This document shows positions 10,782 through 23,391 of a stretch of DNA of 64,000 nucleotides, piece after piece. The notes beneath the pieces were generated by a model that searched no databases, was not told the DNA's origin, and worked only from the letters and a program-made list of their open reading frames with translations. The DNA is from Lutibacter maritimus (GTDB lineage Bacteria; Bacteroidota; Bacteroidia; Flavobacteriales; Flavobacteriaceae), in assembly GCF_900116115.1 (NCBI RefSeq), contig NZ_FOZP01000008.1, positions 131,501 to 195,500 on the forward strand, read 5' to 3'. Every line of letters begins with the position of its first letter. Positions within the stretch are counted from its first letter, which is position 1. The position numbers and the translations under genes were made by a program.

Positions 10782-11435
10782 TTATATATTATCAATAATT
10801 ATTCTATTTCTTCTAATTTTAATTTTTCCTTCGTGTTCCAATATTTTTAATAAACGTGATACTACAACGCGTGATGTATTAATATCGTTTGCAATTTCTT
10901 GGTGAGTTATTATTAAAGTGTTGTTTTCCATTATTTTAACCTTGTCAGTTAAGTATTTGTGAAGTCTGTCATCTAATTTCATAAATGCCAAACTATCAAT
11001 AGAATCTACCATTTCAATTAAACGCATATGATAAGTATCTATAATAAAATGCCTCCAACTTTTATATTTAATAAGCCATTCTTCAATTTTTTCTACAGGG
11101 ACAAAAATACCTTCTGTTTCTTTTTCTGTTAACCCTCTAAACATACTTTTTGTAAGGTTAATACAGTTTATAAATGAAATAGCACAAGTATCTCCTTTTT
11201 CTAAAAAATATAAGGCAATTTCTTCCCCATTTTTATCTTCTCTAATTATTTTTACTGCACCATTTAAGATTAATGGTACGTGCGACATTTTGTCGCCAAT
11301 ATCAATTAAAAGTTCATTTGCTTTAATGCATCTGTATATGCCTACATTTACAATTTCATCAATTAATTCTTTTTCAAAAATAAGCGAATAATAATCTTTT
11401 AACTTTTCCCGTAGAACATCTTTATTTGTAGTCAT
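10782..11435 (-). CDS. Crp/Fnr-family transcriptional regulator
   Basis: This 217-residue protein has an N-terminal cyclic-nucleotide-binding-like barrel (about 20-125) and a C-terminal winged helix-turn-helix: ITHQEIANDINTSRVVVSRLLKILEHEG. The SR pair in the recognition helix matches FNR, whose boxes are TTGAT-N4-ATCAA. The four-cysteine N-terminal cluster of FNR is absent, so it is not an Fe-S oxygen sensor of that kind. The start at 11435 is preferred to the ATG at 11480, because a TAAATTTG promoter element lies between them and the upstream start falls in the porin terminator. It borders the sulfur cluster, whose two main promoters carry FNR-like boxes, so it is a good candidate regulator. 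Confidence 0.9.
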   Translation of the reverse strand: MTTNKDVLREKLKDYYSLIFEKELIDEIVNVGIYRCIKANELLIDIGDKMSHVPLILNGAVKIIREDKNGEEIALYFLEKGDTCAISFINCINLTKSMFRGLTEKETEGIFVPVEKIEEWLIKYKSWRHFIIDTYHMRLIEMVDSIDSLAFMKLDDRLHKYLTDKVKIMENNTLIITHQEIANDINTSRVVVSRLLKILEHEGKIKIRRNRIIIDNI

Positions 11436-11458
11436 ATTTTTTAGAATAGCGATTGTTA

Positions 11459-11466
11459 CAAATTTA
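11459..11466 (-). promoter_or_regulatory. -7 promoter element of the Crp/Fnr gene
   Basis: The minus strand reads TAAATTTG (TAnnTTTG), 23 bases before the ATG at 11435. It lies downstream of the porin terminator, so the regulator gene is transcribed on its own. Confidence 0.6.
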
Positions 11467-11480
11467 AACATTTTCCACAA

Positions 11481-11536: not shown

Positions 11537-12586
11537 TTAAAACTTAACTTGTAGTTGCATTAAAAGTGCGTCGTTATCTATAGTTGTAGCTGTTTCAATT
11601 TTGTTTTGATAATTGATTTGTAATCTTGTATTATCATTAAAGAAATAGTTTACACCTAAAGTCATCATTTCTTGATAACCTATTTTTTTAATATTTAAAT
11701 CTTGATCAAAGTATTCATATTTAAATACTGGTTGCCATTGTTTGTTTATGTCATATGATGCCATCACGTAAGCTCCAGCTCTTTTTGCACCTAATTCTAA
11801 AGGAGTTGCTCCACAACCACCACCTGCAGCTCTGTTATAATCGCCTTCATCATAAATATATTCACTAGTAACATTAAATTTATTGTATGTTAATGCAATT
11901 TCTGCACCATAAGAAGTTCTATCAGTTTCATTATTATTTGGGTAACCATATCTAAAACTACCACCAATACTCATAAAATCAAATAATTTATATGATGCGC
12001 GTCCAATAATATCTTTTTTAGTGTTATTATCAGCAACACCTAAACCTCTACCATTCATTAAAGCTAGAGAATAACGGAACTTAGTTTTAGAAGTACCTCC
12101 TAATAACATTACACCCATATCTCTTTGGGGAGATACTAATTGATCAGAAACAATTGCTCTGTCAATAGTAGTTAAACTATGGCAAGGTGTGTTCACTTCT
12201 AAACCAAAAGGTTGTTTAAAAGAACCAACAGAAACTTTTGCCCACTCATATTTGTCATATGTAATAAATGCATCCATTAAATAAACATTACCATCAGATG
12301 AAATAAAGTCACTTGTTTCTATCATTGCATAGTAAGAAAACGTTCTGTTTACTCTACCTCGAACTCCAAAACGAGCTCTTTTAAATTTAAAAGTACTTGT
12401 TTTATCATCAGTAAAATGTGAATCATATTCTGGTTGAAAATATCCAAAAAATGTTGTGCTACTAGTTTTTGGAACCCCGCTATTTGTAGCAGAAGTACCA
12501 GCATCATCTTCACAGCCTTGTGCATAAGTTGCAGAAAAAGAAAGAGTAAAGATAATAGTAAAGATGAATATTATTTTTGTTTTCAT
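11537..12586 (-). CDS. Outer-membrane porin, OprO/OprP-like, with three cysteines
   Basis: This 349-residue protein has a signal peptide ending near AQG at residue 24. It is a beta-barrel of the phosphate-selective porin O/P type, with GYFQPEYDSHF, FKFKRARFGVRGRVNRTFSYYAMIETSD, QPFGLE and a C-terminal LLMQLQVKF ending in Phe, as needed for Bam-mediated insertion. It would admit anions to the periplasm. Unusually for a porin it has three cysteines: Cys25 (right after the predicted cleavage site), Cys135 (NTPCHSLTT) and Cys258 (AAGGGCGATP). It is last in the operon after two exported rhodaneses, which suggests transport of a sulfur compound; that role is inference. Confidence 0.85.
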   Translation of the reverse strand: MKTKIIFIFTIIFTLSFSATYAQGCEDDAGTSATNSGVPKTSSTTFFGYFQPEYDSHFTDDKTSTFKFKRARFGVRGRVNRTFSYYAMIETSDFISSDGNVYLMDAFITYDKYEWAKVSVGSFKQPFGLEVNTPCHSLTTIDRAIVSDQLVSPQRDMGVMLLGGTSKTKFRYSLALMNGRGLGVADNNTKKDIIGRASYKLFDFMSIGGSFRYGYPNNNETDRTSYGAEIALTYNKFNVTSEYIYDEGDYNRAAGGGCGATPLELGAKRAGAYVMASYDINKQWQPVFKYEYFDQDLNIKKIGYQEMMTLGVNYFFNDNTRLQINYQNKIETATTIDNDALLMQLQVKF

Positions 12587-12704: not shown

Positions 12705-13694
12705 TTAGTTACCAAATGGTAAATCTTTTGATACGCTAGCACTCCATTTATTAGATGACCAAGCAGCATTACTATTATATAATCCGTTCATTCCAAAAGT
12801 TAAACTATAAGCATCGTATCCTAAAACACGTAGCCAAGCTGTAACAACTGCTGATGTTTGACCAGTGTAACAGTAAGTAACCACTTTTGCATTTGGATCT
12901 AAACCTAATACACTATTATCAGCTATTGATAATGGTTGTATTCTATAGGCACCTTTAATGTGTCCAAATCCTGTAAAATCTGTTGAGCTAAAGAAATTAT
13001 TAATAAAATAATTAGTTGGAGCAGCTAATACATCACTACCTTTTACGGTTTTAAAACCTGCAGCAACAACTTCTTCAACACGTTTTTTAAGAATGGCTTC
13101 ACCTGAAGTAGATAAACTTGTAAAAGATGGTTTTGAAAATACTTGATTTGCAGGCGCAGCATCATAAGACCAATTTGCATTACCATCGGCAATATTTCCT
13201 ATGTTATTATTCCAAGATCCAGCAGTTGATGAGTTCCATCCTGACATTCCCCATTTTAAAGCTTGTGTATTTTTATAGCCATACATACGCATTAAAGCAG
13301 TTGCATAACAAGCTGTTTGGCCAGTGTAACATACTACTAAAACTGGCTTAGCTCCTGCAGCAGTTCCTTCAGCTAAAATGTTTGAGAAAGCAACATTTTT
13401 TGCTCCTGCAATATGACTTGTTGCGTAATCAGAAGCGCTTCTAATGTCAATAATATAATATTTTGCTAAAAAAGCGGGTAAATCTGCTTCAGCTGGAGCT
13501 GCAGTTACAAATTTTGCTCCATCAACACTTGTATCTACATTAGGCAAATCTAAATTTGCTGTTAACATATAATCAACCATTAGTGTTTGAGCAGGAGTTT
13601 GTACAACTTGTAAGTCGTCACCTTTGTCGCAAGAGGTTAAGAATATTGATGGAATTAAGAATAGTCCAATTAATATTAATGATATTTTTTTCAT
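12705..13694 (-). CDS. Lipoprotein with two rhodanese domains
   Basis: This 329-residue protein has a lipoprotein signal ending FLTSC (Cys22), so it is membrane-anchored outside the cytoplasm. It contains two rhodanese-like domains (about 60-155 and 200-315), each with an active-site cysteine: Cys122 in VVCYTGQTACY and Cys275 in TYCYTGQTSAV. Single-domain and classical rhodaneses carry sulfane sulfur on this cysteine as a persulfide. Here both domains keep it, whereas in classical tandem enzymes the first is inactive. The loop lacks the usual arginine. It follows a second, related double-rhodanese gene by 42 bases, and a stem-loop and the porin gene come next. The likely role is periplasmic sulfane-sulfur binding or transfer. 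Confidence 0.88.
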   Translation of the reverse strand: MKKISLILIGLFLIPSIFLTSCDKGDDLQVVQTPAQTLMVDYMLTANLDLPNVDTSVDGAKFVTAAPAEADLPAFLAKYYIIDIRSASDYATSHIAGAKNVAFSNILAEGTAAGAKPVLVVCYTGQTACYATALMRMYGYKNTQALKWGMSGWNSSTAGSWNNNIGNIADGNANWSYDAAPANQVFSKPSFTSLSTSGEAILKKRVEEVVAAGFKTVKGSDVLAAPTNYFINNFFSSTDFTGFGHIKGAYRIQPLSIADNSVLGLDPNAKVVTYCYTGQTSAVVTAWLRVLGYDAYSLTFGMNGLYNSNAAWSSNKWSASVSKDLPFGN

Positions 13695-13736: not shown

Positions 13737-14729
13737 TTATTCTACTACTGGGTATTCTTTAATTTCCTCAGATGAAAATCCATTCCACCCTTTTTCCTTT
13801 AAAACAGTGTTCATATAACTATTTGCTCCATATCCTAAATTATAAACATCATAGCCTAATACTTGCAAATAAGCAACAGCATATGCTGCAGACAAACCTG
13901 TATCACAACTAACTAATATTTTTTTGTTTGTAGGTAAAGTGTATAAATCTGCAGTTGAAGAAAGTGAAGAGTTTGGTTGATATCTTACAGCTCCTGGTAC
14001 GTGACCAAAATTGTATTTATCTTCACTAACATAATTTACTGTATAATAATCACTTGGGTTTTCAAAAACAGTTTCAGCTTTTACAATAAATTCTTTGTAT
14101 GGTTTAGCGAAAGCTTCTTCAATACGTTGTTTTAAAATATCCTTTCCTTCAGTTTTTCCTGTTGAAATTGTAGGTGTTGTTGTTTTTTCTGGTATTGGAT
14201 TTACTGTGGTTTCTAATTGATTAGCAAATGCATCTGAAGAATTTTTTTTCCAAATGTTTGTTGCAAATTCATCAGCCCAAGAACTCATGCCCCATTTTAA
14301 ACTATATACATTATTATAACCAGCTAAACGAAGTAATCCTGCATAATAAGCAGCAGATTGACCTGAGTAACATACAATTGTAATTTTGTCATAATTTTCT
14401 GGAGTTATTTTAGTTTCAAAATATTTTAATAACTCAGGACCTTCAACATTTTCAGCATTTTGAATGTGTCCATAAGCATACCAATCTTCACTTCTAATAT
14501 CTAAAACAAGGTATTTTTTGTTTCTTACATTATCTTTAATTTCTGGAGCTAAAATAATTGCAGGAGCTAATTCACTGTTTATAAAATTTCCATTTTCTTC
14601 TAAATATTTAACCAATATTTCAAACTCTGTAGGGTCGTTTATTGGTTGTTGTTGCACATGGTTTTTAAAACTACTTAATAAAATAACTGTAGTAAAAAGC
14701 AGTATTGCATATATTGATATTTTTTTCAT
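13737..14729 (-). CDS. Exported protein with two rhodanese domains
   Basis: This 330-residue protein has an N-terminal signal or anchor helix (5-20) and no lipobox. Two rhodanese-like domains have candidate sulfur-carrying cysteines at Cys120 (TIVCYSGQSAAYYAG) and Cys275 (LVSCDTGLSAAYAV). It shares domain order and motifs (KWGMSSW, LGYDVYNLGYG) with the next gene, so the pair arose by duplication. It is first in its transcription unit, with a -7 element 45 bases upstream of the ATG and an FNR-like box centred 29.5 bases above that. The probable role is periplasmic sulfane-sulfur handling. Its natural donor and acceptor are unknown. Confidence 0.87.
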   Translation of the reverse strand: MKKISIYAILLFTTVILLSSFKNHVQQQPINDPTEFEILVKYLEENGNFINSELAPAIILAPEIKDNVRNKKYLVLDIRSEDWYAYGHIQNAENVEGPELLKYFETKITPENYDKITIVCYSGQSAAYYAGLLRLAGYNNVYSLKWGMSSWADEFATNIWKKNSSDAFANQLETTVNPIPEKTTTPTISTGKTEGKDILKQRIEEAFAKPYKEFIVKAETVFENPSDYYTVNYVSEDKYNFGHVPGAVRYQPNSSLSSTADLYTLPTNKKILVSCDTGLSAAYAVAYLQVLGYDVYNLGYGANSYMNTVLKEKGWNGFSSEEIKEYPVVE

Positions 14730-15046: not shown

Positions 15047-15664
15047 TTAACAACCACCTTCGGCGGGTTTTTTCTTTTTCTTTTGAACAGTAATTACCTT
15101 TTTAGGAGTCACAACTTTTACAGGTATTGGTTTTGATTCAACAGATGCTTTTTTTATAGATTCATCAATAAATTCTTTAATATCAGCAATAGATTTTTCT
15201 ATAGTATCATTTATTGTAATTAGTTGATTTTGATAATAACTATTTTTAATAGTAGCCATTTTTACATTACTATATCCTAACTGATTTAACAGTAAAAAAG
15301 GAACTGTAACATCATTGGTGTTTGAACCGTATAAAACAATAGTTTGGTTAGTTGCTTTTAAGTTGTTTAAAATTTTTGAGTTTTCATCATTTAAAATTTC
15401 AGGAGTATAAATGTTTATTGCATTTTCAAGATGCCCTTTTTCAAACTCAAATTGGTTTCTAACATCTATTAATGCTAAATTTTCACCTTTTAAATCTTCT
15501 AATGTTGCAAAAAAGTTGCTATTAGTGATAGTTTCTAAGGTGCTTTTAGTATTATTAGCATACAAATGTTTAGGTTTTTTGTATGATAAAACAGCTATTA
15601 AAACAACTAATATTGTTATTACTGCGGCTATTGATATTCTTTTAGTTTTTTCTAATTCTTTCAT
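15047..15664 (-). CDS. Membrane-anchored degenerate rhodanese-like protein with a KKKKKPAEGGC tail
   Basis: This 205-residue protein has one N-terminal membrane helix (about 10-27) and a rhodanese-like domain (about 45-150) with LALIDVRNQFEFEKGHLENAINI. The active-site loop reads IVLYGSNTN, so the normal sulfur-carrying cysteine is missing (Gly113). The only cysteine in the whole protein is its last residue, Cys205, at the end of a basic, proline-containing tether: PKKVITVQKKKKKPAEGGC. The preceding gene product has the same last 18 residues. The layout suggests a domain that presents a swinging C-terminal thiol, comparable in principle with the GGCGG arm of SoxY, but no homology to SoxY is visible. 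It is last in the operon with YeeE and the molybdoenzyme. Confidence 0.75.
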   Translation of the reverse strand: MKELEKTKRISIAAVITILVVLIAVLSYKKPKHLYANNTKSTLETITNSNFFATLEDLKGENLALIDVRNQFEFEKGHLENAINIYTPEILNDENSKILNNLKATNQTIVLYGSNTNDVTVPFLLLNQLGYSNVKMATIKNSYYQNQLITINDTIEKSIADIKEFIDESIKKASVESKPIPVKVVTPKKVITVQKKKKKPAEGGC

Positions 15665-15748
15665 AATATATATTTTATAAAAATTGAAAAATTAACAACC
15701 ACCTTCAGCTGGTTTTTTCTTTTTCTTTTGAACAGTAATTACTTTTTT
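15047..15748 (-). repeat. Near-identical 57-base gene ends encoding the GGC tail
   Basis: Bases 15047-15103 and 15692-15748 (stop plus the last 18 codons of two adjacent genes) differ at only three positions, all silent, while the rest of the two genes is strongly diverged. This points to recent duplication, gene conversion or strong constraint acting on the tail. Confidence 0.75.
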
Positions 15749-16348
15749 TGGTGCCACTTTTTTAACTTCTATAGGTTTATCAACCTTAAATTGTTCTGGA
15801 TATGCTACACCAAAAAACATACTTGCAGCTTTTCTAGTATTATAAAGTTCATAATCTAACGAAGTCATATCTTCAGTTGGAACTGGTGGGTTTATAATTG
15901 TTTTATACCAATTATTGATACCTCCTTTTAAAACTTTTAAATTTTTGTAACCTAATCTATTGCATAAAACCCAAGCTTGATCTGCGTAAAAGTTATCATT
16001 AGAAAATAAGATAACATTGTATTGAGCTTGATTTAAGTATGGAATAGATTCTTCATCTAACAATTTTTTAAGTGGAATATTAATAGCATTTGGTAATGAG
16101 TATTTAGTATATTCTGATTCCTCTCTCACATCAATTAATATAAAAGAAGGGTCTTGGTTTACTAATTTGTCAGCTAAAATATCAGTTGAAATATATCTTT
16201 CCGGACTTATTGCTTTGCTTAGTAATTCTTCCGGTTCAATTCCTTCATGTTTTTGGTATTTAGGTAATAAAACCAAACCTCCGGCTAGAACAATAAGAAT
16301 GGCTGCAAGAAATACATATCTTTTTGACACTGATTTTGTTGTGTTCAT
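15692..16348 (-). CDS. Second membrane-anchored degenerate rhodanese-like protein with a KKKKKPAEGGC tail
   Basis: This 218-residue protein has one N-terminal membrane helix (about 11-29) and a rhodanese-like domain (about 50-150) with FILIDVREESEYTKYSLPNAINIPL. The catalytic loop reads VILFSNDNFYADQAW: serine (116) stands where rhodaneses have cysteine, so persulfide chemistry there is unlikely. One other cysteine, Cys129, sits in the following helix. The C-terminus is again PKKVITVQKKKKKPAEGGC. It lies 15 bases after a YeeE/YedE gene and 27 bases before its paralogue in the same operon. The domain may dock sulfur species or partner proteins, with the terminal Cys218 as carrier; this is inference. 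Confidence 0.75.
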   Translation of the reverse strand: MNTTKSVSKRYVFLAAILIVLAGGLVLLPKYQKHEGIEPEELLSKAISPERYISTDILADKLVNQDPSFILIDVREESEYTKYSLPNAINIPLKKLLDEESIPYLNQAQYNVILFSNDNFYADQAWVLCNRLGYKNLKVLKGGINNWYKTIINPPVPTEDMTSLDYELYNTRKAASMFFGVAYPEQFKVDKPIEVKKVAPKKVITVQKKKKKPAEGGC

Positions 16349-16363
16349 AATTTTTAGTTGTTA

Positions 16364-16954
16364 TTAATAAAATACTTTTTTAATTTTTTTGCCTAATAAA
16401 TCTGTTAAATAAAAGGCTAGAATCGCAGCAATAGTTAGTATAAAAATAAACCAATAAGGATTAACACCAAAGCTATCCACTACAGTAATATTTCCTAAAA
16501 ATGAGCCTTCATATAATGGTTGAAAGAGTGTGTAAAATTCAGCAAAGATAAAAACTCCAATCATAATTCCAACTACATAAACCATTGCATCTATTTTGCC
16601 AATAGCTACAGAAGTTAGTGCTGTTCCTGGACAAAATCCTGCTGCAACAAATCCAACACCCATAATTGCTCCACCAACAATTCCTCCCCAAAGGTAAGTA
16701 GGTTGAACATATAATTCAGCTACTCTTATATAACCAAGGTAGTCCATATAATATAATCCAATAGAAGCTACTACAGCTGCCGTAAAAAATACTTTTAAAA
16801 CGGCAAAGTCATAACCGTAAAATACTCCTGCAAGTTTTCTTGATGATGAAAATCCTGATGATTCTAGTACAAATCCGAATGCAATACCTATTAAAATAGC
16901 TAAAACACTGTCCCACTCATAAGGAATTACACCGTTAGGAATTAATGGTCCCAT
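16364..16954 (-). CDS. YeeE/YedE family transporter half (GFCPGT motif)
   Basis: This 196-residue integral membrane protein has about five helices. Its signature GFVAAGFCPGTALTSVAIGK holds a conserved cysteine (Cys108) of the YeeE/YedE family. TsuA, a characterised member, takes up thiosulfate through a path lined by conserved cysteines. Full-length TsuA has about twice this length; here the family is encoded as two short genes, this one and the one just upstream, which carries the other cysteine motif. They probably form a heteromeric thiosulfate or sulfane-sulfur transporter. A rhodanese-like gene follows after 15 bases, an association also found for other YeeE genes. Confidence 0.87.
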   Translation of the reverse strand: MGPLIPNGVIPYEWDSVLAILIGIAFGFVLESSGFSSSRKLAGVFYGYDFAVLKVFFTAAVVASIGLYYMDYLGYIRVAELYVQPTYLWGGIVGGAIMGVGFVAAGFCPGTALTSVAIGKIDAMVYVVGIMIGVFIFAEFYTLFQPLYEGSFLGNITVVDSFGVNPYWFIFILTIAAILAFYLTDLLGKKIKKVFY

Positions 16955-16981: not shown

Positions 16982-17509
16982 TTAAATCCAATTTTTTCTA
17001 AAGAAATACGCAGCTATATAACCTGTGCCAAAAATGGCAATAGTTGTTATAAAACCACCTACAGAAAGTACTGACATTCCGCTTAATGCAGCTCCACTAG
17101 TACAACCTCTGGCAATTTGCGCGCCTATTCCAAATAATGCTCCACCTCCTAAAGCAAAATACAAACGTCTTCTGCTAGTTATTTTAGGAGAGTGTTGCAC
17201 TCTTAAACCAATTCGTCCAGATAAACCACCAGAAATCATTCCTCCAATTAACATTCCAAGTACTTCAAATACTAACCAAGTATTTAAAGGAGATTTATCT
17301 TCACTTATAAATTTACTGTAATAGGCATTATTTGCTGCGTGTGTTGGAGCTACAGTTTCAACAACTGCAACAACGCCACTTTTCATAGCGCCACTTGCAC
17401 CTAACCCTCTTCCTGTTGTGTAAAATGTGAAAATTACAATTAATCCTAAAAGAAATCCTCCAAAATATGGATTCCAATAAATATGTTTATTTTGTTCTAT
17501 ATTTTTCAT
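16982..17509 (-). CDS. YeeE/YedE family transporter half (RGCTSG motif)
   Basis: This 175-residue membrane protein has about four helices and ends in the signature IGAQIARGCTSGAALSGMSVLSVGG with the conserved Cys136. It complements the partner gene 27 bases downstream, which carries the GFCPGT cysteine motif. Together they cover the two homologous halves of a single-chain YeeE/YedE protein. It lies 10 bases after the NrfD-type subunit gene, in the same operon, which ties transport to the molybdoenzyme. The probable substrate is thiosulfate, by analogy with TsuA. Confidence 0.87.
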   Translation of the reverse strand: MKNIEQNKHIYWNPYFGGFLLGLIVIFTFYTTGRGLGASGAMKSGVVAVVETVAPTHAANNAYYSKFISEDKSPLNTWLVFEVLGMLIGGMISGGLSGRIGLRVQHSPKITSRRRLYFALGGGALFGIGAQIARGCTSGAALSGMSVLSVGGFITTIAIFGTGYIAAYFFRKNWI

Positions 17510-17519
17510 TTTTCTATTT

Positions 17520-18461
17520 TTAATAAAGGTAACGAGTTATTTGACCAGCTTCAACCATTACAAATCTTAATACCATTCCGCCAATTAAAACTAATATTGC
17601 TGGAACAGCCACTGGAATTTTAAATCCTCTTAATTCTAAAAACTCTAGAATAGCTGGGGCAATTAATCCAAGAATGATTACAAAACCAAAGAACATCATT
17701 GTAAATTCTCCGCCTACCAATAATTGCATTGCTTCTAATTGAACTTCAGAACCAGCGTACATTCCCATTAACATATGTACAATTAAACCTAATTCTAAAA
17801 CAATTAATGCTAAATCTATTTTACCAAATAGGTGTTTTTCTTTTTGAGTTTTAGCTAATAATATAATTGTAGCTGCACCAGTTGATAAACCAGAAACTAA
17901 AAATAAAGGGCCTAAAATTGCATTATTCCATAATGGTCTTGCATTAAATGCTGATAACAAAATACCAGTATAAACTCCTAAAATAATTGATAATGGAATT
18001 AAAGCATACGCCATATTTTTTCTATTACCTTTTAAGAATTTTTCAAATTTATTTAAGTTCTCATATTTTAATTGCCATTTCGGAAAAATTTCTGAATAAT
18101 AACTAAACACCCATAAAAATGATATTGGTGTAATAATTAACAATACCCACGCTCCCCAACTCATTGGAGATTCTATTCTAATTGTGGTGTAAAGTCTCCA
18201 AAAATAAAACTTGTGAGTTAAATCATAAAATAAAGCCAACAAACCTAATGTTAATGCTATTGGCGAAATAATTGAAGCATATTTAACAGCCGCTGGGTAA
18301 TCTTTTTCTTTACCTAAAACTGTAATTAAACCTGCAAAAAACAATAAACCTGCAGCTAAACCTCCTAAAAATAAATAGAGTGATATTGGCCAATGCCATA
18401 TTTCTAATGAAGGATCTATATGTGGTAAATTTCTTCCACTTGTAAATAATTCTTCTTGCAT
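17520..18461 (-). CDS. NrfD/PsrC-type quinone-interacting membrane subunit
   Basis: This 313-residue protein has about eight membrane helices and belongs to the NrfD/PsrC family, which anchors molybdoenzyme/Fe-S pairs and exchanges electrons with the quinone pool. Family features include the opening HWPISLYLFLGGLAAGLLFFAGL, the FWRLYTTIRIESPMSWGAW segment and LLSAFNARPLWNNAILGPLFLVSGLSTGAA. It lies 12 bases after the Fe-S subunit gene. Whether the complex reduces polysulfide or thiosulfate, or oxidises a sulfur compound into the quinone pool, cannot be decided from this subunit. Confidence 0.9.
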   Translation of the reverse strand: MQEELFTSGRNLPHIDPSLEIWHWPISLYLFLGGLAAGLLFFAGLITVLGKEKDYPAAVKYASIISPIALTLGLLALFYDLTHKFYFWRLYTTIRIESPMSWGAWVLLIITPISFLWVFSYYSEIFPKWQLKYENLNKFEKFLKGNRKNMAYALIPLSIILGVYTGILLSAFNARPLWNNAILGPLFLVSGLSTGAATIILLAKTQKEKHLFGKIDLALIVLELGLIVHMLMGMYAGSEVQLEAMQLLVGGEFTMMFFGFVIILGLIAPAILEFLELRGFKIPVAVPAILVLIGGMVLRFVMVEAGQITRYLY

Positions 18462-18473
18462 ACTATAAATTTT

Positions 18474-19007
18474 TTAAATTAAATAATAAACCTGAGGCTT
18501 AGTTCCAGCTTCTGGAGCCAATGTTTTATATTTTCTATTTTTTAATAATTCTGAAACTTCACTATTTGGATTGTCTAAATCTCCAAAGTACATACACTTT
18601 GTTGGGCAAACAGAAACACACGCAGGAAGTTGTCCTTTTTCTAATCTGTGATGACAAAAAGTACATTTATCTACATAACCATCAGGATGTTGGAAACGCG
18701 CATCGTATGGACAAGATTCTATACAAGCACCACAACCAATACATTCATCACCAGTAACCAAAACAATTCCATTATCTAATTGATGACTTGCTCCGGTAGG
18801 GCAACAACGCACACAAGGAGCATTTTCACAATGATTGCAACGTTCAGATTTTAATTCTAATTCTATATTTGGATATGCACCATTTACGGTTTCAGTAATC
18901 CAATCTCTACAGTACCCAATTGGTACATCATTTTCAGTTTGACAAGCAACAACGCAGTCGCTACAACCAACACATTTTAATGTGTCTATAACCATTGCAT
19001 ATCTCAT
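18474..19007 (-). CDS. Ferredoxin-like electron-transfer subunit with four [4Fe-4S] motifs (PsrB/PhsB type)
   Basis: This 177-residue protein has four cysteine clusters typical of PsrB/NrfC/PhsB subunits: CVGCSDCVVAC, CNHCENAPCVRCC, CIGCGACIESC and CTFCHHRLEKGQLPACVSVC. It passes electrons between the molybdenum catalytic subunit and the membrane subunit. No signal peptide is visible, so it would be exported bound to the Tat-targeted catalytic subunit. Its ATG overlaps the end of the catalytic gene by four bases, a sign of translational coupling. Confidence 0.93.
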   Translation of the reverse strand: MRYAMVIDTLKCVGCSDCVVACQTENDVPIGYCRDWITETVNGAYPNIELELKSERCNHCENAPCVRCCPTGASHQLDNGIVLVTGDECIGCGACIESCPYDARFQHPDGYVDKCTFCHHRLEKGQLPACVSVCPTKCMYFGDLDNPNSEVSELLKNRKYKTLAPEAGTKPQVYYLI

Positions 19008-21247
19008 ATCTCAGTATTTTTATGTGGATTTTCGGTTAAAATTGTTACAAAATTTCCTCGCATTCCAGTTCCTCCCATAATTGGATCAACAGCAACCGTT
19101 GTAATTAATTCAGTATCATTAATACCTTTGCCAAAAGCACGGCTTAATTTTTTTTCTTGATGGCCAAAACCATGAACCATATACACTGAATCCCAACGAA
19201 CTCTTTCTGTTACTCTTACTTTTATTGAAAAAGTTGAAATAATATCATCTTGATTTTTTAACCATACTTCTTGACCGGTTTTTAAACCTAAGATTCTTGC
19301 AACTTTAGGGTTTACCCATAAGTTATTTTCACTCTTTAAATCGTTTAAATTTGGATTATTTGCAGTTCTGCTAAATGTGTGCATAGGAGCTCTACCATAA
19401 TTTAATCTATAAAAACCTTGTTGAGGTTCTGGATGTCTCGTATACTTTGGAAGTGGATCAAAACCTAAATTTTTTAATTCATGGGAGTATAATTCTATTT
19501 TACCACTATTTGTTGGAAATTCATGAGGACCAGTTTCATTTAAGTACATTGGTCCTGATTTACGTGGAAAATGTTTAACTCCAATTTTCTCCATTTCCTC
19601 TAAAGAAGTTCCCATTTGTTGCAATTGCCATTCTATTACTTCTTTATAATCGGTATAATTAAAATATGCACCAACACCCATTCTTTCACCAATTTCTTTG
19701 GCAATCCACCAAGAAGGTTTAGAATCGTATTTTGGAGCTACAGCAGGTATTCTTACTGCAATAGAAGGTTCTCTGTTGGTTGCTGATCTAATTTCATCAT
19801 AACGTTCTAAATAGGTACATTCAGGTAAAACAACATCAGCATAACCTGTAACATCCATTGGCATTGTGTCAATAACCACCATAAAATCAAGTGCATCAAT
19901 TGCTTCTTCTAATAATTTTTTATTTGGAATTGATTTTGTAATGTTTGTACCAGCTACCATTAATGCTTTTACTGGATATTTATTATCTTCACTAGGTATT
20001 GCACATTTTATTACTTCGGTGGTAATACCCATTTGTGCTAAAGGATACTTTGCTCCAATTTCTTTCCATCCCCATTTTGGATGTGGATATTCTGGTGCTG
20101 GAAATTCAGGAACTTTTATACTTTCTTTAAAATAGAAACCACCTCTTCTTCCCCAAGAGCCCAATAATGCATTTAAAATGGCCATTGCTCGTGCTCTTTG
20201 TGAATCATCACCATACCAAACAACGTGGCGTCCTGGATGTATAATTACTGATGGTGAAGCACTTGCCATTTCTCTGGCAGTTTTTCTAATTTCATCTGGT
20301 TTTATTCCTGTAATGCCGTAAGCCCATTCAGGAGTGAAAGTGCTAACATGTTCTTTTAATTCATTAAAACCAGTAGCATATTTTTCAATATATTCTTTAT
20401 CGTAAATATTTTCGTTTATTAAAACGTTCATCCAAGCTAGCATTAAAGCTATATCAGTTGCAGGTTTGATAGCTAACCAGTATTTAGATTTGCTTGCTGC
20501 AGTTGAAAAACGAGGGTCTACAGTTATAATTGTAGCTCCGTTATCAATAGCATCAGACATTTCTTGTACTTGGCTATTATGCATGTTTTCACCTATATGT
20601 GAACCTATTAAAACCAAACATTTAGTGTCTCTAATATCAGTTGGTTCTGGTGATCCAACCCAAGATCCGAAGGTTAAACTAAATCCTGTTTCACGTGGGC
20701 CTCTACATTGTGCATAGGCAGGTTCAGCAATAGTATCGGAGCCAAAAGATTGAAACAAATGTTCTAAATGTTTGCCTGGAGCACCGTGTTTTATTAACGC
20801 TAATGATTCAGCACCAAATTCTTCTTTAATTCCATTAAATTTAGAGGCAATTAAATCAAGTGCTTCTTCCCAAGTTGCTTCTCTAAAGGTTTCTTCCCCG
20901 TTAACAGTTGTTCTAATTAAAGGTGTTTTTAATCGGTCTTCATCATTATACATTCCTACGCCACCAGTTCCTCTTGGGCATAAACGGCCATAACAATGAG
21001 GGTCATTCTCATTACCAATAATTTTTTTAATAGAACCTTCTTCATCTGTATAAGTCCAAGCAGCGCACTTCCAAAAACAAACTTCGCAATAGGTAGCAGT
21101 TCTTTTAAAGTTTTTAGCAACATTTTCTTTTACCAATTCATCAATATATGAACTGGCACCAAACATATTTAATGCTGTGGTTGATGCCGCTACACCTCCC
21201 AAACCTAAAGCAGAAATTTTTATAAATTTTCTTCTTGAAGTAGTCAT
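19004..21247 (-). CDS. Tat-exported molybdopterin oxidoreductase, PsrA/PhsA-like catalytic subunit
   Basis: This 747-residue protein opens with a Tat signal (TTSRRKFIKISALGLGG) and is therefore periplasmic. It has an FS0 [4Fe-4S] motif (Cys54, Cys57, Cys61 in CEVCFWKC, and Cys90 in CPRG). The probable Mo ligand is Cys181 in YAQCRGPRETG, as in polysulfide, thiosulfate and other sulfur- or arsenic-handling members of the DMSO reductase family. C-terminal molybdopterin-dinucleotide binding segments such as HTFSRTANNPNL are present. The companion genes (Fe-S, NrfD, YeeE, rhodaneses) favour a sulfur substrate such as thiosulfate, polysulfide or tetrathionate. Direction and substrate are inference. 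It is first in the operon, behind an FNR-like box. Confidence 0.88.
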   Translation of the reverse strand: MTTSRRKFIKISALGLGGVAASTTALNMFGASSYIDELVKENVAKNFKRTATYCEVCFWKCAAWTYTDEEGSIKKIIGNENDPHCYGRLCPRGTGGVGMYNDEDRLKTPLIRTTVNGEETFREATWEEALDLIASKFNGIKEEFGAESLALIKHGAPGKHLEHLFQSFGSDTIAEPAYAQCRGPRETGFSLTFGSWVGSPEPTDIRDTKCLVLIGSHIGENMHNSQVQEMSDAIDNGATIITVDPRFSTAASKSKYWLAIKPATDIALMLAWMNVLINENIYDKEYIEKYATGFNELKEHVSTFTPEWAYGITGIKPDEIRKTAREMASASPSVIIHPGRHVVWYGDDSQRARAMAILNALLGSWGRRGGFYFKESIKVPEFPAPEYPHPKWGWKEIGAKYPLAQMGITTEVIKCAIPSEDNKYPVKALMVAGTNITKSIPNKKLLEEAIDALDFMVVIDTMPMDVTGYADVVLPECTYLERYDEIRSATNREPSIAVRIPAVAPKYDSKPSWWIAKEIGERMGVGAYFNYTDYKEVIEWQLQQMGTSLEEMEKIGVKHFPRKSGPMYLNETGPHEFPTNSGKIELYSHELKNLGFDPLPKYTRHPEPQQGFYRLNYGRAPMHTFSRTANNPNLNDLKSENNLWVNPKVARILGLKTGQEVWLKNQDDIISTFSIKVRVTERVRWDSVYMVHGFGHQEKKLSRAFGKGINDTELITTVAVDPIMGGTGMRGNFVTILTENPHKNTEI

Positions 21248-21501: not shown

Positions 21502-23391
21502 ATGAAAAATAAAAAACATTGGTATTTTTTTAGTGCTATTTTAATTATAATAGCTATTATTTTTTTAATTATAAATAATCTTAATAATTTTCAGGTTATT
21601 GAAGATGATGGTTACGTTAATATTGAAAATGCTTCAAAAGAATCTTGTTTAAATTGTCATATAAACACTACAGGATATTCATCCTATCATAATCCAGAAT
21701 TAATTGGTTGTGCAAGTTGCCATTTAGGAAATACAGCTTCAAATGATAAAGATGAATCTCATAAAGGGATGATTTTAATTCCTGGAAATTTAGTTGATGC
21801 TAAAGAAACTTGTGGAAAATGTCATCCAAATGAATTGTCAAAAATTGAAAATTCATTAATGACCACCAATAGTGGTATCGTTGCTGTTGATAAGTACATT
21901 TTTGGTGAAGCAGATTCTCCGAATTATCAATATCATATTAAATTGATTAAGAACTCTGCATCTGATAAGCATTTAAGAGATTTATGTGCCAATTGCCATT
22001 TAGGAGCTGAGAAAAAGGAATATGGACACATAACTCAATTAAGTAGAGGAGGAGGTTGTAATGCTTGCCATTTAAATTATAGTGAAGAGGCTAAAAAAGA
22101 TTTAGAAGCGTATTTAAAATCTGAAAAAAAAGTACTTCCTAAAATGCATCCTGCAACTAATATTTTTGTAAAAAACGAGCATTGTTTTGGTTGCCATAGT
22201 CGTTCTAGTAGAATTTCAACCAATTATGAAGGCTGGCAAGAAACCTTGTTGGAAGAAAATGATATTAAAGGTAAAAATGGCTTTAAAACTTTTGAAGATT
22301 TACGTATTTATAAATTTATTGAAGAAGACGTGCATCATACCAAAGGTATGTTGTGTATAGACTGTCATTCATCACACGAAGTTATGGGTGATGGTAAAAA
22401 ATATACGCACGAAGAACAAGCTGTAAAATTGCAATGTGCCGATTGTCATTTTAAAGAAAAACCAAACACTATTCCGTATAGTAAGTTGGATGCAGAAAGT
22501 TTATTGGTGTTTTTACATAGAGATTATAAACATTCCGATAAACAAATAATAGCTGTTAAAAAAGACGGACATCCATTAGTGAATACTTTTGTAGATTCTG
22601 TTGGAAATGCTTTTTTAATTGGAAAAAAAGATGGAAAAATTCACAAATTAAACCCTCAATCTGAAATTTGCTCACGAGATAATGCACATAAAAACGTGAG
22701 TTGTTCAACATGTCATTCTTCTTGGACTTCACGTTGTATTGGCTGTCATAACCAATTTGATAAAAATGAACCGCGCGCTTTTGATTTATTAGACAAAAAG
22801 TATGTAAAAGGTCAGTGGAAGGAACATGTTGCTGAATTTTCTTCATCATTACCAGCAATGGGAATTAGAGAAAATGCAGAAGGAAAACATATTGAACCAG
22901 CAGTTCCTGGAATGATTTTAACTATTGATAAAGGAAGTTATGTTGGAAAAGAAATAGGAAAAGATGTAAGTTTTCATAGACTTTATGCGCCAAATTCTCC
23001 TCATACAACTATTTCAAAAGCTAGAGATTGTAAAAGTTGTCATACAAATTCAGCAACTTTAGGTTATGGAAAAGGAGTACTTAATTATATTATTGATAAA
23101 GGAAAAGGAATGTGGGAATTTACACCCGAGTATGCTAAAAATCTGAATGATAATTTACCAGAAGACGCCTGGATTCCATTTTTAAAACCTACTAAAAAAG
23201 GAATGGTAAACTCTACCAGAACAGATTTTAGACCATTTACTGTAAAAGAACAGCAGCAATTATTGTTAGTTGGTGCGTGTTTACAATGCCATAAAGAAGA
23301 CTCTAAAGTAATGCAGCAAAGTTTAATTAATGGTATTCAGCCACTATTAAAAAAACTCGACAAAAAGTGTATATTGCCAACTTGGAATTAA
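21502..23391 (+). CDS. Membrane-anchored 12-heme cytochrome c
   Basis: This 629-residue protein has an N-terminal membrane helix (about 9-28) and twelve CxxCH haem-binding motifs: CLNCH, CASCH, CGKCH, CANCH, CNACH, CFGCH, CIDCH, CADCH, CSTCH, CIGCH, CKSCH and CLQCH. Haem attachment takes place in the periplasm, where it would carry electrons or act as a reductase. Octahaem enzymes such as tetrathionate or hydroxylamine-type cytochromes have fewer motifs, and I cannot assign it to a named family. It is divergent from the molybdoenzyme operon with 254 bases between, which suggests joint regulation and possibly electron exchange with that complex. The gene for YhhN follows after 11 bases. Confidence 0.88.
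   Translation: MKNKKHWYFFSAILIIIAIIFLIINNLNNFQVIEDDGYVNIENASKESCLNCHINTTGYSSYHNPELIGCASCHLGNTASNDKDESHKGMILIPGNLVDAKETCGKCHPNELSKIENSLMTTNSGIVAVDKYIFGEADSPNYQYHIKLIKNSASDKHLRDLCANCHLGAEKKEYGHITQLSRGGGCNACHLNYSEEAKKDLEAYLKSEKKVLPKMHPATNIFVKNEHCFGCHSRSSRISTNYEGWQETLLEENDIKGKNGFKTFEDLRIYKFIEEDVHHTKGMLCIDCHSSHEVMGDGKKYTHEEQAVKLQCADCHFKEKPNTIPYSKLDAESLLVFLHRDYKHSDKQIIAVKKDGHPLVNTFVDSVGNAFLIGKKDGKIHKLNPQSEICSRDNAHKNVSCSTCHSSWTSRCIGCHNQFDKNEPRAFDLLDKKYVKGQWKEHVAEFSSSLPAMGIRENAEGKHIEPAVPGMILTIDKGSYVGKEIGKDVSFHRLYAPNSPHTTISKARDCKSCHTNSATLGYGKGVLNYIIDKGKGMWEFTPEYAKNLNDNLPEDAWIPFLKPTKKGMVNSTRTDFRPFTVKEQQQLLLVGACLQCHKEDSKVMQQSLINGIQPLLKKLDKKCILPTWN

Follow-up and report, generated by a model that had tools for sequence, protein, structure and literature searches.

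Within the window, the 64,000-nucleotide stretch of Lutibacter maritimus DNA analysed here, a series of minus-strand genes runs from a molybdopterin oxidoreductase (MopB, 19004..21247; Pfam and NCBIfam), which has a twin-arginine-like start and PhsA as its nearest NCBIfam model, through a 4Fe-4S ferredoxin subunit (FeS, 18474..19007; nearest NCBIfam models NrfC, ArrB, DsrO and TtrB, all below cut-off) and an NrfD-type membrane subunit (17520..18461; PF03916), to two half-length YeeE proteins. The first of these, YeeEa (16982..17509), corresponds to the C-terminal half of PF04143 and is PmpA-like, with an RGC cysteine, and the second, YeeEb (16364..16954), corresponds to the N-terminal half and is PmpB-like, with a CPGT cysteine. 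R1 and R2, the two proteins considered here, come next, and behind them lie two double rhodaneses that retain both catalytic cysteines by Pfam and the catalytic alignment column (RDD1, 13737..14729, whose relatives are tailed in some loci, and RDD2, 12705..13694, with a lipoprotein-like start), a Porin_O_P porin with a conserved GGCG motif (11537..12586) and a Crp-type regulator (10782..11480) that adjoins the cluster in many relatives. On the plus strand, a divergent multihaem cytochrome, nearest to the NCBIfam model ExtM (21502..23391), adjoins the cluster in many loci.

R1 (218 residues, 15692..16348) and R2 (205 residues, 15047..15664) are both present on the minus strand where the first-pass annotation had placed them, and each combines a predicted membrane anchor with a rhodanese domain and a C-terminal arm ending in cysteine. 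Pfam assigns both to the rhodanese fold (PF00581; 48.5 and 52 bits, cut-off 22.2), and both lack the catalytic cysteine of the active loop: when they are aligned with the four active domains of the double rhodaneses next to them, its place is taken by Ser116 in R1 and Gly113 in R2, the replacements that the same annotation had read from the sequence. It was also right that the terminal cysteine is the sole cysteine of R2; R1 has two. The identical C-terminal stretch ending in GGC likewise stood, at a length of 19 residues instead of the 18 given before, the last 19 codons of R1 (15695..15751) encoding PKKVITVQKKKKKPAEGGC and those of R2 (15050..15106) the same peptide. An AlphaFold2 model of R1 (mean pLDDT 86.9) predicts an N-terminal helix at residues 7-26 and a confident rhodanese-like core to about residue 180, with low confidence from about residue 181 to the end (block pLDDT 69, 62, 62 and 53), and Foldseek returned rhodaneses as the top matches of this model (best E 3.5e-8).

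The tail is confined to these two proteins by both searches made in the genome, neither of which revealed a third tail-bearing protein. A query with 18 residues of the tail gave no match at E ≤ 10 besides R1 and R2, and a pattern of GGC followed by TAA or TGA matched six places, the four besides R1 and R2 ending frames of only 4-12 residues. Because the tail query matches two places only and the other GGC-stop patterns close such short frames, a chance origin of the common tail is unlikely.

Conservation of the terminal cysteine

Loss of the tail cysteine from orthologues had been named at the outset as the result that would speak against a role for it. In a genus set of 30 loci including that of the window, which yielded 30 R1 and 28 R2 sequences, EGGC is instead invariant (30/30 and 28/28), as is Ser116-Asn-Asp in R1, while the bodies vary, with a mean column identity of 75% for R1 and 62% for R2. 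The search behind this set, made with the tailed rhodanese P0002, matched 58 of 100 relatives at E ≤ 0.001, many of them by generic rhodanese similarity alone. A contig profile search with a model that included the tail gave 160 confirmed loci, the best 80 of which were used; these come mostly from Lutibacter and other Flavobacteriaceae, plus five from Bacteroidales and five from Saprospiraceae. Among the 79 R1-bearing loci of these best 80 (the sequence of L097 ends before R1), both half-YeeEs are present in 76, and the three exceptions are L036 and L085, whose sequences end at R1, and L098, which is without half-YeeEs. Taking these best 80 of 160 together with the phylum loci, and leaving out the window's own locus (L113), a terminal cysteine followed by at most two glycines is found in 105/105 R1 proteins, 8/8 YeeEb-R1 fusions, 69/73 R2 proteins and 6/47 RDD1-type proteins, figures that lean towards tails because the queries included the tail. 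The tail is thus absent from four of the 73 R2 proteins, which suggests that the second arm is dispensable. The terminal cysteine is the only cysteine in 48 of 74 R2 and 43 of 106 R1 proteins, and one further R2 of the 74 has a single cysteine that is not terminal.

We also approached the family without the tail in the query, by searching 395 Bacteroidota genomes with a YeeEa alignment (E ≤ 1e-15) and scanning the region beside YeeEb with a body-only rhodanese profile; the alignment derives from operons with tailed proteins and the body profile was built from tailed proteins. YeeEa matched in 65 of the 395 genomes, the window's included, at 68 loci besides the window's. The tail-including phylum search covered the same 395 genomes, so that 57 genomes are found by both searches, G390 by the tail-including one only and eight by YeeEa only. 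A rhodanese-like protein lies beside or is fused to YeeEb at 66 of the 68 loci, and in 65 of these 66 proteins one of the last two residues is a cysteine; the same holds for 3 of 568 other mechanically called open reading frames of at least 200 residues and none of 92 recognised neighbours in the same loci. In the one exception, L208, the rhodanese frame is broken, and a stretch reading KPKKKKREGC-stop lies in another frame; the two loci with no rhodanese-like protein (L239 and L240) are also the two weakest of the 68 YeeEa matches. At the scale of the phylum, too, the tail cysteine is therefore conserved, at 65 of the 66 loci found without the tail in the query. Outside Bacteroidota, 72,556 plasmid records gave one weak match (Gemmatirosa, 29.5% over 48% of the query).

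The arm is typically rich in lysine and arginine and then ends in GGC, EGC or GGC-X. Among 66 tails, a count that includes one second protein in L175, the endings are GGC (32), EGC (19), MGC (4), GGCA, GGCG, GGCS and GLCS (two each) and DGC, GGCT and FQC (one each); 65 of the 66 carry a net positive charge in their final 25 residues, and a glycine adjoins a single cysteine, as in a SoxY-like arm, in 63, the two GLCS tails and the FQC tail being different. The catalytic column holds Ser, Gly, Ala or His in 186 of 188 family members and Cys in two (L133 and L134). The porin, the double rhodaneses and the second tailed protein are absent from many distant loci. Taken as sequence families, R1 and R2 thus appear to represent a group of membrane-tethered, catalytically dead rhodanese-fold proteins of Bacteroidota with a conserved C-terminal cysteine arm. 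From single-domain rhodaneses of the GlpE/PspE type (PF00581), whose fold they have, they differ in the replaced catalytic cysteine and in carrying a thiol at the end of the arm.

The form of the endings also bears on the alternative offered in the first-pass annotation, covalent attachment at the terminal cysteine, taken here to include processing, with a lipid, a protein cross-link or a sorting signal as examples. The C-terminal position and the basic cluster would suit such a site, but the final 28 residues show no conspicuous hydrophobic stretch, several lineages have one residue after the cysteine (GGCG, GGCS, GGCA, GGCT) and the proteins already possess an N-terminal helix, so that our data lend this alternative no support and we regard it as very unlikely.

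Transporter halves, redox partners and the side of the membrane

YeeEb covers positions 8-149 of PF04143 and YeeEa positions 175-309, and the two therefore form a pair of the PmpAB type, in which two half-length YeeE proteins match opposite halves of the family with one conserved cysteine each. Cys136 of YeeEa is invariant in 37 of 37 aligned sequences, its GCxSG motif occurs in 71/72 and 68/68 relatives in two sets, and the CPG motif of YeeEb in 77/77 and 67/67. Excerpts of PMC11582611 give PmpB and PmpA one cysteine each, equivalent to Cys91 and Cys293 of TsuA, and state that TsuA has three conserved cysteines, the first of which is without counterpart in PmpA and PmpB. The same excerpts call sulfur import to the cytoplasm poorly understood, have E. 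coli TsuA work with the cytoplasmic TsuB/YeeD, and call a passage of sulfur from the SoxY cysteine along the channel cysteines of SoxT conceivable, with direct transfer between cysteines doubted because those of TsuA lie ~7 Å apart (PMC11582611); other YeeE/YedE clusters are treated in the parts of PMC12998232 and PMC13047784 consulted. While our pair resembles PmpA/PmpB in its two half-proteins with one conserved cysteine each, it differs from YeeE/TsuA, SoxT and PmpAB in the tailed dead rhodanese that stands beside, or is fused to, the protein of the N-terminal half, and in that the tailed proteins also occur without half-YeeEs, in L098 and L115.

The redox partner of the cluster is exchangeable. 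Among the 66 loci, 25 have a MopB protein, 33 an octahaem-type cytochrome (30 of these with a small cytochrome b) and eight neither within the stretch read; the 33 octahaem assignments rest on a PDB comparison for one protein, on Pfam for three and on length and the number of CxxCH motifs for the rest. Of the octahaem proteins, the three that were scanned fall in PF11783, as two of the small membrane proteins do in PF01292, and the octahaem protein of L174 is similar over its full length to 1sp3 (E 5.1e-120 over residues 55-470). The PDB name of 1sp3 is 'cytochrome c, putative', and we take it to be the octahaem tetrathionate reductase. The tailed domain is fused to YeeEb in 35 of the 66 loci, 32 of them of the octahaem type, one with MopB and two unassigned. 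With MopB at 25 loci and an octahaem cytochrome at 33, the half-YeeE and the tailed rhodanese form, as far as gene neighbourhoods tell, a module that goes with either of two different redox enzymes.

These partners also bear on whether the module handles oxyanions of selenium, tellurium or arsenic, the tail cysteine binding the reduced element. The best NCBIfam model of YeeEb is indeed the YedE selenium transporter, a weak match (30.7 bits, cut-off 200), and the divergent cytochrome is nearest to ExtM of selenite/tellurite operons, well below cut-off (246.6 bits, cut-off 800). By contrast, MopB scores best with PhsA (NF012032, 466 bits, below the equivalog cut-off of 694), ahead of formate dehydrogenase (264.8), arsenate ArrA (146.5) and selenate YnfF (143.2), the best model of YeeEa is the thiosulfate transporter TsuA (44 bits, cut-off 400), and the alternative partner is a homologue of octahaem tetrathionate reductase, which together make this reading improbable.

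Two loci, L098 (Robertkochia sediminum) and L115 (genome G390), show the tailed proteins apart from the transporter. There NrfD is followed by R1 at a distance of 63 and 14 bases, respectively, and then by R2, with no half-YeeE between; R1 and R2 are tailed in both loci, and MopB is visible in L098, while the sequence of L115 ends at FeS. YeeEa finds no match at E ≤ 1 in G390, a genome that is 99% complete; its matches in the L098 genome are partial, weaker and elsewhere (best 1.5e-10). Docking to the transporter as the sole role of the arm was ruled out by these two loci, each with two tailed proteins and no half-YeeE. The arm can thus apparently do without a half-YeeE transporter, so that completing a cysteine relay would not be its only role, and the redox complex emerges as its likely client.

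As to the side of the membrane, the charges flanking the anchors of R1 and R2 were not decisive. The same tail recurs on a third protein in L109-L112 (Saprospiraceae) and L105 (Bacteroidales), a double rhodanese with an active-site cysteine and a lipoprotein-like start. Lipoproteins are located outside the cytoplasm, as are twin-arginine molybdoenzymes and c-type haem proteins. Given tails on lipoprotein-like double rhodaneses and partners of the twin-arginine and c-haem kinds, the arm probably works in the periplasm.

The main rival to a sulfur-carrying arm is a tail cysteine that serves as a redox or structural thiol, whose disulfides with the half-YeeE, the redox enzyme or the other tail would act in assembly, gating or sensing of the complex. 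On this reading fusion and synteny would be no different, the tails kept without a half-YeeE in L098 and L115 fit a role on the redox complex, and an excerpt of the SoxT paper mentions a neighbouring DsbA-like protein that ends in a CxxC (PMC11582611). The swap of partners between two classes of thiosulfate/tetrathionate enzyme, however, fits a substrate-bearing thiol better, as does a Gly-Cys arm in gene contexts like those given for SoxY in the parts of PMC11237559 consulted, and a structural disulfide needs no long arm, whereas this one is modelled with low confidence and is probably disordered. We therefore rate the redox or structural thiol as unlikely, though as the strongest of the alternatives.

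Matched tails within genomes

The least expected result was that the tails are matched and co-varying on bodies that differ. Over the last 13 residues, R1 and R2 are on average.892 identical within a genome and.825 across nearest genomes in the 66 loci (of 67) retained after nine of 76 paired loci, more distant ones among L103-L112, had been left out and one near-duplicate dropped; by locus, within-genome identity is higher in 40, equal in 16 and lower in 10. The bodies are only 26.5% identical in the same loci. L073, in which the pair consists of R1 and RDD1, was included in tail identity and dropped from the codon and co-change counts. Compared with the nearest genome, both tails have gained one and the same new residue at 62 positions, and one tail alone has changed at 29, in a count that omits positions with unlike new residues in the two tails and in contrasts that are not independent, because partners are common to several of them.

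Such a pattern could arise simply from gene conversion between the paralogues, without the tails having any function in common. The paralogues are adjacent, the last 13 codons of R1 and R2 in the window are.95 identical in DNA, and non-lysine codons agree slightly more often within genomes (.644) than across them (.594; p=.083). Against this, different synonymous codons are used at 27 of the 62 co-changed positions, identical residues do not share a codon significantly more often within genomes than across them (.694 versus.661, p=.18), DNA identity falls directly after the stop codon (from.89 over the final 15 bases, counting the stop, to.39 in the next 15), the serine of L110 is AGC in one tail and TCA/TCC in the other two, and the terminal cysteine is kept in fusions at loci where no second tailed copy is seen. 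Without five methionine positions, counted by eye, co-changed codons are identical in 30 of 57 cases (.53), compared with.51 (1622/3183) in the bodies. Gene conversion was thus disfavoured by the codon-level tests, and as the sole cause of the common tail it seems to us the least probable of the explanations considered. Since synonymous codons at co-changed positions differ about as often as the background does, the evidence favours co-selection over copying for the matched tails of most loci. L115, where tail DNA is.97 identical and all five co-changed codons are the same, may be a recent copy.

We infer a single partner site, drifting between lineages, to which both tails must be fitted. Matched tails on two or three proteins fit a common docking site, and in that respect, or by pairing between tails, they would also be compatible with the redox or structural thiol discussed above.

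A putative sulfur-carrying arm and its known counterparts

Two kinds of flexible C-terminal arm with a cysteine offer themselves for comparison. The arm of SoxY has the form GGCGG. DsrC/TusE has a flexible C-terminal arm with a cysteine at or next to its end, and the tailed proteins resemble it in this, while differing in fold and in that DsrC/TusE is cytoplasmic and has two arm cysteines. Classic PhsABC and Otr operons have, to our knowledge, no tailed rhodanese, although Phs/Psr thiosulfate/polysulfide reductases and octahaem tetrathionate reductase (1sp3) are the counterparts of the redox partners in the two architectures. The sulfur-binding 'swinging arm' of SoxY is described in excerpts of PMC11237559, according to which SoxY-S3 is found with soxZ and an octahaem tetrathionate reductase gene (otr), and SoxY-S1c with YeeE/D, dsrAB and, further upstream, dmsAB. 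The likeness thus extends from a carrier-type cysteine in a flexible C-terminal arm to the neighbours, either YeeE with an enzyme of the DMSO-reductase type or octahaem tetrathionate reductase, as described there for SoxY-S1c and SoxY-S3 (PMC11237559). By this analogy, SoxY would stand where Bacteroidota have the tailed rhodanese. Unlike SoxY, the tailed proteins have a rhodanese fold, a membrane anchor of their own and a basic linker, their cysteine is mostly the last residue, and in many genomes they are fused to a transporter half.

SoxY itself (PF13501) is absent from the Pfam matches of R1 and R2 at E ≤ 0.1 and from their own genome; 60 relatives gave no SoxY match either, in a search whose positive control matched nowhere there. 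Across the phylum, SoxY scores above cut-off in 45 of the 395 genomes, most of them in one family (f32). Of the 65 genomes with YeeEa, one (G104) is among these and 64 are not, a near-exclusion that is confounded by phylogeny because the SoxY genomes belong mostly to that single family. In our searches of open-licence PMC papers we saw no account of a C-terminal cysteine arm on a rhodanese, nor of such a fusion of YeeE and rhodanese.

We consider it somewhat probable that the tail is a periplasmic thiol carrier arm, SoxY-like in function, on a dead rhodanese scaffold, serving a redox enzyme and usually a PmpAB-like transporter, because the same arrangement recurs in many related bacteria beside enzymes and transporters of sulfur compounds. 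The earlier suggestion of a SoxY-like arm on another scaffold gains from the fusion to YeeEb, the exchange of MopB for octahaem cytochrome and the published neighbours of SoxY; its sulfur chemistry is the part that we still infer. The working thiol would have moved from the active loop of the rhodanese to the end of a flexible basic arm that probably lies in the periplasm. There its cysteine would carry sulfur covalently, as a persulfide or as a thiosulfonate derived from thiosulfate or tetrathionate, swinging between the redox enzyme (a PhsA-like molybdoenzyme or an octahaem cytochrome) and the active double rhodaneses where these are present, and it would also reach the pore of the half-YeeEs in nearly all genomes seen. 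One step further, and with less weight, the tail cysteine might stand in for the first cysteine of TsuA/SoxT, which is without counterpart in the half-proteins.

Somewhat less probably than the carrier arm itself, this could be a third kind of sulfur-carrier arm besides those of SoxY and DsrC, in which, across Bacteroidota, a cysteine arm on a dead rhodanese presents sulfur to exchangeable redox enzymes of the thiosulfate/tetrathionate type and, in nearly all genomes seen, to a half-YeeE, often by fusion. The tail would then act as a portable, lineage-specific docking tag, its sequence co-evolving on two or three scaffolds, and might provide a relay cysteine. If the arm does work in this way, many Bacteroidota would gain a periplasmic sulfur carrier other than SoxY, and, since the putative carrier and a transporter half are often one fused protein, the question of sulfur import would be open to a single change of cysteine to serine. 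Should the matched tails represent a docking code, they would be an unusual instance of one partner keeping paralogues in step across different scaffolds.

Cysteine-bearing and redox proteins around the cluster

The Porin_O_P porin of the cluster (window positions 11537-12586, - strand) contains a conserved, SoxY-like GGCG motif, which is kept in 35 of 36 orthologues and reads TGCG in the remaining one; it may represent a sulfur-binding loop of an outer-membrane channel. Two further recurring cysteine contexts, a start-proximal QGC and T-A-C, are present in the porins of four loci (L246-L248 and L250), and the sole distant paralogue seen (L251) is devoid of cysteine. SoxY itself scored above the cut-off in a single one of the 65 genomes encoding the half-YeeE protein YeeEa, namely G104, whose locus (L188) has the octahaem cytochrome architecture and encodes the tailed rhodanese as a separate protein. 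A divergent multihaem cytochrome (window positions 21502-23391, + strand), for which ExtM is the nearest model with a score far under the cut-off, adjoins the cluster here and in many named loci as well.

Catalytic and terminal cysteines

Among 188 members of the R1/R2 rhodanese-like family, a cysteine occupies the catalytic position in only two, the R1-type proteins of L133 and L134. As both also retain the terminal cysteine, they possibly represent an intermediate state.

Variation, absence and possible relocation of the tail

An RMGC-tailed form adjoins YeeEa-YeeEb in L218, L220, L228 and L232, where neither the molybdoenzyme subunit MopB nor the octahaem cytochrome was recognised within the locus stretch; double-rhodanese-like genes adjoin it in L218, L220 and L232. 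The 232-aa relative in L224, encoded close to a 561-aa rhodanese-like protein, has the unusual terminus EEDLRFQC. In L105 and L109-L112, each locus encodes three proteins, built on two different scaffolds, that have one lineage-specific tail in common; serine is encoded by AGC in one of the L110 tails and by TCA/TCC in the other two.

R2 lacks the tail in four loci (L063, L073, L078 and L090), being short (154 aa) in L090. In L073, the EGGC end is found instead on the double rhodanese RDD1, as if the arm had been transferred there. Finally, tailed R1 and R2 directly follow NrfD without a half-YeeE in Robertkochia (L098, 9953-11334, + strand) and in genome G390 (L115, 7-1314, - strand), and thus the arm is able to exist without the transporter.
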